Assembly: GCF_000981765.1 (NCBI RefSeq)
Contig: NZ_CP010975.1
Coordinates: 1,860,001-1,924,000, forward strand
DNA from: Kangiella geojedonensis
Lineage (GTDB): Bacteria > Pseudomonadota > Gammaproteobacteria > Enterobacterales > Kangiellaceae
DNA length: 64,000 bases
Direction of reading: 5' to 3'
The notes below the pieces were generated by a model, which was not told where the DNA came from, ran no database searches, and was given only the letters and a program-made list of their open reading frames with translations. The translations under genes and the position numbers were made by a program. Below, in pieces: positions 3,520 through 57,486 of the stretch. Position 1 is the stretch's first letter, and each line of letters opens with the position of its first letter.

Positions 3520-5622
3520 ATGAAAAAACTGATTATAAGCTCAGTGTGCTTAGCAGTTTTAGCCGCTTGTAACTCTGAGAACCCTCAGAAAGAGCAAGCG
3601 ACTGAAACCGCAAAAGCACAAACCAGTGAGCAAGCTAAGGTTGAAGCGTCAGATAAACAAATGTCTGAAAAGAAAGTCATTTCGGGGATTGAAACAAAGT
3701 TCATTGATAAATCCGTCCGTCCTCAAGATGATCTCTTCCGCCACGTTAACGGCAAGTGGCTTAAAGAGTTTGAAATCCCTGCGGACAAATCAAACTACGG
3801 TTCTTTTACTAAGTTAGCAGAACAAGCAAAAAAAGATGTTCGCGCTATCATCGAAGAAGCGGCTCAGACTAAGGCTGAAGATGGTACAGAAGAGCAACAA
3901 GTTGGTGACTTATTCGAAAGCTACATGAACACTGATAAGCTTGAGGAATTAGGTACATCACCGTTACAGCCTGAGCTTGATCGTATTGATGCGATTAAGG
4001 ATCTATCAGACTTATCAGAGTACCTTGCGTACGCACAAATGGTATCAACATCACCATTTAGCACTTACGTCTATGTCGATGCCAAACAGCCTGACACTTA
4101 CATCACGCAGATGAATCAAAGTGGTTTAGGCCTTCCTAGCCGTGACTCTTACCTAAAAGAAGATGAAAAGAGTCAAAAAGTTCGCGACCAATACGTTGAG
4201 CACATTGCTAAGATGTTTGAACTGGCAGGTGTTGAAGGTGGCGAAGATAAAGCTGCAACAGTCATGGGCTTGGAAACCTCAATCGCCCAGAAACATTGGC
4301 CAAAAGAAAAGTTACGTAATCCTGTCGCTCGTTATAACAAAATGAGCTTTGTAGATTTGCAAAACACCTTATCGAACCTAGACTGGGATCGTTGGCATAA
4401 CAACTCTATGTTAGGCGACATTGAAAACGTCATTATCGGTCAGCCAGATTATTTTGCTGCGCTAAACGATATGTTTAAGGAAGTGCCACTTGAAGATTGG
4501 AAAACTTACTTTAAATGGCATGCGATTACTAACAGCGCAAACTTCCTTAACGCAGCAATCGAACAAGAAAACTTCCGTTTCTATCAAGGTGTACTGAGCG
4601 GTGTTGAAGAACAAGAGCCGCGTTGGAAACGAGGTGTTAACGTCATTAACGGCACACTAGGCGAAGTTGTTGGTAAGATTTATGTGAAAAAACACTTCAA
4701 GCCAGAAGCTAAAGAGCGCATGGTTGAGTTGGTCGAAAACCTACGTCGCGCTTACGCTCAAGGTATCAAAGAACTTGAGTGGATGGGCGAAGATACTAAG
4801 AAACAAGCTCTTGATAAGCTCAGCAAGTTCACACCAAAAATCGGTTATCCTGATAAGTGGAAAGACTATTCAGACTTAGTGATTAAAGATGATGACCTTT
4901 ATGGCAACATGACTCGCGCCGCGTTGATGCAAGTGAAGAAAAACCGCGAAAAGCTGGGTCAACCAATTGATCGCACAGAATGGTTTATGACGCCACAAAC
5001 GGTTAATGCTTATTACAACCCTGTAATGAACGAAATCGTTTTCCCAGCGGCTATCCTGCAGCCTCCATTCTTTAATATGGAAGCTGATGACGCTGTGAAC
5101 TACGGTGGTATCGGTGCAGTTATCGGTCACGAGATGGGGCACGGCTTTGATGATTCAGGTGCACAATACGATGGCGACGGTAAGTTGCGTAATTGGTGGA
5201 CGGAAGACGACCTTAAAGAATTCGAGAAGCGTACTGATACATTGGTTGCACAGTACAACAACTTCACAGTTCTTGATGGTGTTCATATCAACGGTGAATT
5301 CACTCAAGGTGAAAACATCGGTGACTTGGGCGGTTTAACCATTGCCTATAAAGCCTACCAAATCTCTAAAGATGGTAAAGAAGCTCCTGTAATCGACGGC
5401 ATGACTGGCGATCAACGAGTTTTCTATGGCTGGGCTCAAGTATGGCGCCGTAAATACCGTGACGAAGAGCTTCGTAAGCGTATCGACACGGACCCTCATT
5501 CGCCAAGCGAATTCCGTGCTAATGGTACCGTACGTAACATGCCTGAGTTCTATGAAGCGTTTAACGTAGAACCAACGGATGAGATGTACTTAGCACCAGA
5601 AAAACGCGTTAAAATCTGGTAA
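3520..5622 (+). CDS. pepO: M13 family zinc metallopeptidase, lipoprotein
   Basis: A 700-residue M13 (neprilysin/PepO) endopeptidase. The N-terminus is a lipoprotein signal: MKKLIISSVCLAVLAACN, with lipobox LAAC and the lipidated Cys at 17. A Gln/Glu/Lys-rich linker follows, then the M13 N-terminal domain (from about residue 65, QDDLFRHVNGKW) and the catalytic domain. The zinc site is HEMGH at residues 537-541. The third ligand sits in ENIGD at about 598-602. NAYYNP, which binds the substrate backbone in this family, lies near 490. It should cleave peptides of limited size in the periplasm or at the outer membrane. It is monocistronic, between a weak upstream hairpin and a strong downstream terminator. 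The symbol follows the family name; orthology to a particular PepO is not tested. Confidence 0.92.
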   Translation: MKKLIISSVCLAVLAACNSENPQKEQATETAKAQTSEQAKVEASDKQMSEKKVISGIETKFIDKSVRPQDDLFRHVNGKWLKEFEIPADKSNYGSFTKLAEQAKKDVRAIIEEAAQTKAEDGTEEQQVGDLFESYMNTDKLEELGTSPLQPELDRIDAIKDLSDLSEYLAYAQMVSTSPFSTYVYVDAKQPDTYITQMNQSGLGLPSRDSYLKEDEKSQKVRDQYVEHIAKMFELAGVEGGEDKAATVMGLETSIAQKHWPKEKLRNPVARYNKMSFVDLQNTLSNLDWDRWHNNSMLGDIENVIIGQPDYFAALNDMFKEVPLEDWKTYFKWHAITNSANFLNAAIEQENFRFYQGVLSGVEEQEPRWKRGVNVINGTLGEVVGKIYVKKHFKPEAKERMVELVENLRRAYAQGIKELEWMGEDTKKQALDKLSKFTPKIGYPDKWKDYSDLVIKDDDLYGNMTRAALMQVKKNREKLGQPIDRTEWFMTPQTVNAYYNPVMNEIVFPAAILQPPFFNMEADDAVNYGGIGAVIGHEMGHGFDDSGAQYDGDGKLRNWWTEDDLKEFEKRTDTLVAQYNNFTVLDGVHINGEFTQGENIGDLGGLTIAYKAYQISKDGKEAPVIDGMTGDQRVFYGWAQVWRRKYRDEELRKRIDTDPHSPSEFRANGTVRNMPEFYEAFNVEPTDEMYLAPEKRVKIW

Positions 5623-55339: not shown

Positions 55340-55674
55340 AAAGCCATGAATTCGTAACATAACCGTAGTCAATCTCTCACAAAAGCTTCATCGAAAACGT
55401 CTAGTTTCATTCCAGTAATTATTATTAAATAGCAACTGAACCGACGGAATGGTTCTGCTCTTAAGGACGAGAGTATCAGGGACACCTCAGGAAGAGGTCA
55501 TTAAGGAATGTCTCAGGAAGAGACTCTACTCTAAGGAAAGAAAGCTCAGGATGAGCATGTTGATGAAAAGGGAATGGCACAGGATGTGCTACTTCCCTTT
55601 CAACATCCTTCTCAGTAGCAAACTCAGTAACAAAATCTAATGGATACAACGGAAACAACTAAAAGGACTTTACT
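55340..55674. other. Intergenic region glsA to 76-residue gene
   Basis: This 335-base interval is dominated by the GGA array. Ahead of it, AT-rich sequence near 55421-55430 offers a TATTAA-type -10 element without a good -35. I see no GacA-type upstream activating palindrome. No intrinsic terminator is visible after glsA or after the array. Confidence 0.5.
55446..55606 (+). ncRNA. CsrB/RsmZ-like GGA-hairpin array (candidate CsrA-binding RNA or leader)
   Basis: Ten GGA motifs occur in about 140 bases. Four are AGGA pentaloops of perfect short hairpins: CTC-AGGAA-GAG (centre 55491), CTC-AGGAA-GAG (55517), GCTC-AGGAT-GAGC (55550) and GCAC-AGGAT-GTGC (55583). Between them lie single-stranded AAGGA words at 55463, 55503 and 55533. 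This alternation, with CAGGA(A/U)G loops, is the hallmark of RNAs that titrate CsrA/RsmA. The last hairpin is capped on a long stem (AAAGGGAA 55567-55574 with TTCCCTTT 55593-55600; ATGTTG with CAACAT). No U-run follows, so it may be a leader of the gene at 55675 rather than a free small RNA. Confidence 0.65.
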
Positions 55675-55905
55675 ATGGCGATCAAGCTTATTCAAAAATA
55701 CCAAGGCTGGTGGGATTCTAGCCAAAACCGCGGCCACTTCTGGTTTACCTATTACGATAATACTCGCGAAAGAAGCGTCTACGTCAATGCTTCAGAGTTC
55801 CAGATCATGATGGACATGCTAAGAAACGAAAAACCTGTCTACGGCGACCATACCCGCGCCCTAGTCACCACCCAATCTGAAGAAACTGGTGAAGAAGAAT
55901 CCTGA
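55675..55905 (+). CDS. Small conserved-looking hypothetical protein
   Basis: A 76-residue acidic protein behind a good ribosome site (AAAAGGA, 55661-55667, seven bases before ATG). It is rich in aromatic residues in its first half (YQGWWDSS, GHFWFTYYDN). It then shows SVYVNASEFQIMMDMLRNEKP and an acidic disordered tail (SEETGEEES). There is no signal peptide, membrane helix or known motif. The compact beta-type pattern suggests a small folded domain. I do not recognise the family. The GGA array directly upstream and its own AAGGA ribosome site make post-transcriptional control by CsrA plausible. Confidence 0.75.
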   Translation: MAIKLIQKYQGWWDSSQNRGHFWFTYYDNTRERSVYVNASEFQIMMDMLRNEKPVYGDHTRALVTTQSEETGEEES

Positions 55906-55964
55906 TCGAAACCATTGTTGAAATCATAGTTAACTTATTCTTATCAGTTTTACTTCAGTGTAAC

Positions 55965-56030
55965 AGCCAGCGCAGTCTTCTAACCAAGACACTTAACTAC
56001 CCCTAGTAACCCTTCGCGCTGGCTTTTTTT
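55965..56030 (+). terminator. Intrinsic terminator with a long loop
   Basis: AGCCAGCGC (55965-55973) pairs perfectly with GCGCTGGCT (56016-56024), followed by seven T. The loop is about 42 bases, which is unusually large. It lies about 60 bases after the 76-residue gene and is the first clear terminator downstream of glsA. Confidence 0.75.
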
Positions 56031-56646: not shown

Positions 56647-57486
56647 TTAGTGACTAATTTCGACAATATGGAGCCTCTTAACTCGTACTTCTCCAAATGG
56701 ATCCAAAGAAACCTCTTTTAATACCAAAGCTTTGACTTGTGATTTTGTCATAGACGAAATGTACTCAATTCTGTCTTGGTCACCAACTACTGAGAAAGGA
56801 TAATCTCCTTCAATAATTTCTCCCACGCCTATAACCGTTAATTTTCCAACATTACTTCTCTTGTTAAAATCAAAAATATCTCAAAAGATTGGCACAGGCT
56901 CCTTTTCAATATGTGTAGGATTATCAAATATAGACTTCTCGTTATCACGCAACTGAATCTCTGGATTTTCAGCACTTCCCATAGAGTAGTTTGTTACAGC
57001 ACCCTTCTTCAATTTATGATTCAAAGCTCTCCAGTGCTCAACCGAAGCTTCAGCTATCTGGTAAACAGGACCGTTATAAGTGTTATGAATATCACCATTG
57101 TGCACAGTCAGTGTCGAATCATCATTAGCTTGGTATACCGGCTTTTCCCCTTTCTCAGCAAGTTTATAAACAAACTTTAAAAGCTCCCAGCTTTGCTTAG
57201 TAAGTTCCCATATATCTTTTGAGCTAAAAGTTGCTAGTACGGGAATTGTAAGCTGAGCAACATCGTAAATTATTTCTAAATCAGTCTCTAATGAGCCATG
57301 CTTAATATCAAACGTTTTTAAGCAAAAAACTTCTCGGTCACTTTTAGTGACTTTACTGCCTCCTGATAGAACTAAGTAGGTTTTATCAAAGATGGCTTGA
57401 ACTTCACTCAAAGATGATATCGCAAGAGGCAAAGGAATTCCTTGCTCGAAAGTAGGCCCCTCCATTTTAAATTTAAAATTGCTCAT
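56647..57486 (-). pseudogene. Unknown protein gene interrupted by an in-frame TGA
   Basis: The frame opens with ATG at 57486 and codes 201 residues to a TGA at 56883-56881. The same frame then continues open for 77 more codons to a TAA at 56649-56647. The extension (DIFDFNKRSNVGKLTVIGVG, then YPFSVVGDQDRIEYISSM and EVSLDPFGEVRVKRLHIVEI) has normal coding character and looks like the missing C-terminal beta domain. So a single ~279-residue protein is probably broken by one nonsense codon, or the TGA is read through. The N-terminal part (FEQGIPLPLAISSLSEVQAI, then DKTYLVLSGG) has no motif I can name. There is no signal peptide or membrane helix. A 3'-truncated but functional 201-residue product is the alternative. 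Confidence 0.65.

Follow-up and report, generated by a model that had tools for sequence, protein, structure and literature searches.

In the 64,000-nucleotide stretch of DNA analysed here (the window, G000:C1:1860001-1924000; positions are counted from its first letter), an array of GGA-bearing hairpins with CsrB/Rsm-like features occupies positions 55432-55607 of the plus strand, downstream of glsA and ahead of a gene for a 76-aa protein; this assignment draws on a CsrB model match, the hairpin count, covariation and the predicted fold. Ten GGA motifs start between 55446 and 55582, within 140 bases, as a sequence-only reading of the locus had counted. The same reading had described four AGGA loops on perfect stems alternating with single-stranded AAGGA words, and both are present: the stems are ACCTC/GAGGT, GTCTC/GAGAC, GCTC/GAGC and GCAC/GTGC, and the words between stems hold the GGA of 55505 and that of 55535. 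Two further hairpins, GAACC..GGTTC and CTCTT..GAGAG, bring the GGA placed in loops to six, and the array is closed by a long stem (55557-55607, plus strand) recognised from the fold and from the conservation of its pairs. When a GGA hairpin was defined as a GGA inside a loop of 3-8 bases on at least four closing pairs, with one G-U permitted and no overlap between hairpins, the 176 bases of the array gave six, against a mean of 1.09 and a maximum of 4 in dinucleotide shuffles, none of 1000 reaching six. In a two-strand scan of the 64 kb, no 176-nt segment exceeded the array in GGA count or in hairpin count. The total folding energy of the array is unremarkable (z -1.30; 18 of 200 shuffles fold equally well); its signal is the placement of GGA, not stability. 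When a 598-base transcript was folded, six of the array's GGA were 98-100% unpaired and three were 35-51% unpaired, the GGA at 55571 being fully paired within the long last stem.

An intrinsic terminator directly 3' of the array had been reported as missing, and none was found. The terminator scan returned a single weak terminator-like match on the plus strand at the array end (55575-55591), which was rejected as a terminator: it is the tip of the longer stem, its U's are paired in the fold, and no U-run is conserved there across the seven loci that carry the array. A coding function of the array itself was likewise discarded. Array lengths vary between species from 176 to 196, shifting the frame, and the frame that in four genomes (G000, G001, G005 and G014) stays open from the third codon onward is broken by stops in G008, G009 and G018.

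Among 20 Kangiella genomes, the array stands downstream of glsA in seven: G000, which is the genome of the window, G001, G005, G008, G009, G014 and G018. It is absent behind glsA in G003, G011 and G013, other genomes carrying glsA, where quite different DNA follows that gene (L037-L039). A tree of 18 rows was built from a region of about 3.1 kb round the genus's other Rsm-type RNA, leaving out G011 for its short locus and G002 because that RNA was not located in it. The array genomes form one side of a branch with support of 100/100, which fits one origin of the array in one clade. Each of the six other arrays likewise has 5-7 GGA hairpins, a number equalled by none of 1000 shuffles. A model of the array (R2), run over 295 genomes of the order, scored its seven training loci at 138.8-180.9 bits and beyond them gave three weak matches (27.8-29.1 bits, E<=1e-4), one of which lies inside a CsrB copy of G122. 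The alignment of relatives that had been proposed as a check was made with MAFFT, and loops and stems are kept in all seven loci, that of the window included: 91.7% of cells are standard pairs, compared with 39-48% when partners are slid, a test that is favoured by the derivation of the structure from the same seven-array alignment. Of the 40 pairs, 12 have changed on both sides, a figure that averages 5.6 in shuffles and that none of 500 shuffles reaches; further pair types stand out less, their number being matched in 34 of 500 shuffles, and many pairs of the 3' stems are invariant and hence uninformative on covariation.

The relation to the CsrB family was examined with the covariance-model search that had also been put forward. 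The Rfam CsrB model (RF00018) matches positions 55438-55616 with 35.6 bits (E 3.2e-8), half of the curated cut-off of 71 bits, and this is its only match at E<=10 in the genome of the window. No Kangiella genome of the 20 holds a CsrB match over the cut-off; 14 hold one at E<=1, several of which are other RNAs or chance. Of 14 control genomes, 8 gave a match to the model at E<=10 and 5 at E<=1; under the stricter limits of E<=1e-3 and E<=1e-6 E. coli alone remained. Because the controls match often only at high E, weak CsrB matches mean little, and that of the array stands well clear of them. Multiple GGA in hairpin loops, a trait of RF00018, are found in the window (six) and in all seven arrays (5-7 each). 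As judged from these sequence comparisons, the array is CsrB/Rsm-like and not a filed member of RF00018. Elsewhere in the order, a U-run closes the CsrB match in 28 of the 29 loci that could be assessed; for this comparison the best locus per genome was taken, 30 loci being fetched from 60 matching genomes, with one (L083) left out as cut by a contig end and one (L090) showing a shorter run. CsrB-like RNAs of sister genera (L118, L119 and L121-L123) have 10-21 GGA within the match and carry terminators, seen by eye in all five assessable of six loci, and all score under the Rfam cut-off.

Upstream of the array, an 18-base UvrY/GacA-type box is listed at 55364-55381 (plus strand), reading TGTGAGAGATTGACTACG on the other strand, and a box lies at equal distance in all seven array genomes, with TGTGAGACATTGACTATA in G008 and TGTGAGACATTGTCCATT in G009. 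Published UvrY sites include TGTGAGAGATCTCTTACA at E. coli csrB and TGTGAGACATTGACCATT at Salmonella csrC (PMC4682653), and the G009 box differs from the Salmonella csrC site TGTGAGACATTGACCATT by a single base. Set against whichever of three published sites is closest, the seven boxes show 1-4 mismatches, a level that 0-9 of 2000 shuffles per upstream region reach. The case for the box rests on conservation of its position, because two further positions of the 64 kb equal the four mismatches of the window's own box. As a sequence match, the upstream UvrY/GacA site typical of CsrB/Rsm-type RNAs is thus present in 7/7. Between box and array, an AT-rich stretch (TTATTATTAAATA and variants; 55419-55431, plus strand), identified by eye at a fixed distance in the seven loci, is the presumed -10 region, and the transcript is presumed to start near 55434-55438. 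The promoter scan found no consensus sigma-70 promoter.

The 76-aa gene (55675-55905, plus strand) is preceded by the ribosome site AAAAGGA that had been noted from the sequence. The last stem had been placed 69 bases from the gene; the close spacing stands and the figure does not, since 67 bases separate the end of the stem at 55607 from the ATG at 55675, and across the gene-bearing loci the gap is 32-68 bases with no conserved U-run. The gene is present in 6 of 31 genomes and, by a wider profile search, in 6 of 40 genomes of the family, always in genomes with the array. Over 15 species pairs, dN is 0.005-0.141 and dS 0.37-2.35, with dS saturated in five pairs, and these substitution rates mark the frame as a real gene under purifying selection. 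The protein has no match in Pfam, NCBIfam or solved structures, and its one PHROG match (E 0.052) is at the level of chance; its structure model (mean pLDDT 82.6, pTM 0.67) has five to six strands, one helix and a low-confidence tail. Relatives that are 35-45% identical occur in cyanobacteria (L045-L047, around 3956-5281), and in L046 and L047 three tandem copies adjoin a YcaO cyclodehydratase gene, a neighbour that raises the question of a modified-peptide role. GGA motifs in and ahead of a ribosome site are a layout suiting CsrA repression. In the window, three GGA are presumed CsrA repression sites (55642-55667, plus strand), two in the leader at 55642 and 55651 and one in the ribosome site at 55665, and a ribosome-site GGA with at least one GGA upstream is found in 6/6 gene-bearing loci.

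Past the gene, a terminator with a long loop, AGCCAGCGC..GCGCTGGCT followed by T7 (55966-56030, plus strand), is predicted from the fold and is seen by eye in 7/7 loci with compensating changes; the terminator scan was blind to it, its loop limit being 8. Matches to the Rfam models OmrA-B and CyaR at 55901-56030 were rejected, as they are under the cut-off and rest on this terminator hairpin. A 201-aa frame on the minus strand beside the neighbours of the array (56881-57486) has a best Pfam match of E 0.026, below the cut-off. Array and gene stand together in six of the seven loci, and the gene without the array was found in none of the genomes searched. The exception is G018, in which the ribosome site is recognisable and the end of the gene less clearly so, the start and body being gone, while the array keeps seven GGA hairpins; a protein search of this genome found no copy of the gene elsewhere. 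Because the array persists in a species that no longer has the gene, it must be of use on its own. The array would thus not depend on the gene, a conclusion for which this one species is limited evidence, as the loss may be recent.

The components of a Csr system are encoded across the genus. CsrA is found in 20/20 Kangiella genomes, and UvrY/GacA over the cut-off in 18/20, the two misses being genomes 55% and 86% complete. The genus also has an Rsm-type RNA of its own (model R1; L062, G000:C1:202792-202935), which was detected in 19/20 genomes, that of the window included, with matches of 113-166 bits, six of these loci having built the model. This RNA ends in an intrinsic terminator and, in the six loci scanned, matches no Rfam family over the cut-off; in 16 of 19 loci it has, some 146-154 bases upstream, a box with at most three mismatches to the consensus, a count made without a chance control. 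Since the genus keeps this terminator-ended RNA in 19/20 genomes, the array would be a second, clade-specific Csr RNA. In G009, a third GGA-rich intergenic stretch (G009:C1:2391819-2392084, minus strand; L028 1501-1766) matches CsrB below the threshold and is followed by a terminator-like hairpin.

The sequence-only reading had seen in the array the architecture of CsrA/RsmA-titrating RNAs. Conservation, covariation, the sub-threshold CsrB match, the box of UvrY type and a genome that encodes both CsrA and UvrY support that view well. It had also offered a small RNA and an mRNA leader as alternatives; both may hold, given that array, gene and terminator appear to form a single unit and that the array outlives the gene in G018. 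The reading preferred here, to which we assign a probability of roughly 0.6, is that the array is a UvrY-controlled CsrA sponge and also the leader of the mRNA of a CsrA-repressed small protein. Points that count against it are the CsrB score at half the cut-off, the ordinary folding energy, the failure to find a consensus sigma-70 promoter, the tied four-mismatch box of the window, the weak terminator-like match at the array end and the possibly recent date of the gene loss in G018. Phosphorylated UvrY (GacA) would activate a promoter just 5' of the array, and a single RNA of about 600 bases would be made, running from the array through the gene. Its first 175 bases would form a chain of GGA-loop hairpins that hold several CsrA dimers away from other mRNAs, as CsrB/RsmZ do, and a separate array RNA might be cut free of the messenger. 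The 76-aa gene has a GGA site as its ribosome site and more GGA upstream, so free CsrA would block its translation, and the protein would be made once UvrY is active and CsrA titrated. Conserved gene, ribosome site and a terminator common to array and gene would be compatible with an RNA that carries a translated gene, as a dual-function RNA would. The chances seem evenly balanced that this is a natural decoy/small-mRNA dual RNA, in which sponge and protein would rise together and the protein would be an output of the Csr switch.

Other explanations account for part of these data. A discrete CsrB/RsmZ-type small RNA, ending past the long stem by Rho-dependent termination or processing and leaving the gene to be expressed independently, would suit the persistence of the array without the gene in G018, the long and conserved closing stem and the weak terminator-like match at the array end. 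It is nevertheless unlikely, as seven loci show no conserved U-run past the stem where 28 of 29 CsrB loci of the order have one, the conserved terminator sits past the gene, array and gene co-occur in 6/7 with the gene never alone in the genomes searched, and the general sigma-70 scan shows no promoter for the gene. A leader acting only in cis, with CsrA on the array controlling the 76-aa gene and no noticeable titration, appears less probable still: 5-7 hairpins far exceed the need of a single repression site, the flaA leader being described with two GGA (PMC4894983), and G018 retains the array without a gene to control, even though GGA stand in and ahead of the ribosome site in 6/6 and CsrA-bound leaders are known elsewhere. 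The sequence-only reading had further considered that transcripts might arrive by read-through from glsA. This may happen, and the short gap behind glsA and the failure to find a consensus promoter are compatible with it; yet it is unnecessary because the upstream box is conserved in 7/7, and that the array is reached mainly in this way, with no promoter of its own, is very improbable, given that the box and the AT-rich stretch keep their distance in all seven loci.

CsrB-type RNAs are generally taken as non-coding, and a clade with the array before a conserved gene, together with a gene-less species, makes a sponge and a messenger in one molecule directly testable; the same clade lets one ask how a single protein deals with both ends, and the uncharacterised 76-aa protein gains a likely place in the UvrY-CsrA circuit. 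A search of the literature found no CsrB-type array ahead of a small gene, which is weak evidence given that it reached mostly outside subscription journals, and nothing on CsrA, small RNA or Rsm in Kangiella. Among the kinds of dual-function RNA that may still come to light, a 2023 perspective counts decoy/smRNA (PMC10339803).

Compared with known systems, the array shares with CsrB/RsmB RNAs (RF00018) the chain of AGGA-loop hairpins with single-stranded GGA between them, the UvrY-type box upstream, and a genome encoding CsrA and UvrY; it differs in its half cut-off score, in having no terminator directly after it and in the conserved gene that lies ahead of the terminator, and its box is separated from the presumed start by about 65 bases, whereas the E. 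coli csrB site lies at -183/-182 (PMC4682653). The genus's own R1 RNA is likewise GGA-rich with a UvrY-like box upstream, but it ends in an intrinsic terminator, occurs in 19/20 genomes and has another sequence and place. The flaA leader of Campylobacter jejuni, which titrates CsrA and is a CsrA target, and the fim mRNA leader of Salmonella, which titrates CsrA, resemble the proposed reading in being mRNA leaders that titrate CsrA (PMC4894983); flaA, as described there, has two GGA hairpin loops before a major structural gene, whereas the array has six CsrB-like hairpins before a small one. By analogy, the nearest precedent is RsmW of Pseudomonas aeruginosa, an RsmA-binding RNA that is apparently released by processing of the PA4570 3'UTR, PA4570 being a gene for 74 aa (PMC4950607). 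It too is tied to a small gene, apparently in one transcription unit (PMC4950607), but in reverse order, the RNA lying in the 3'UTR of its gene and the Kangiella array upstream of its own.
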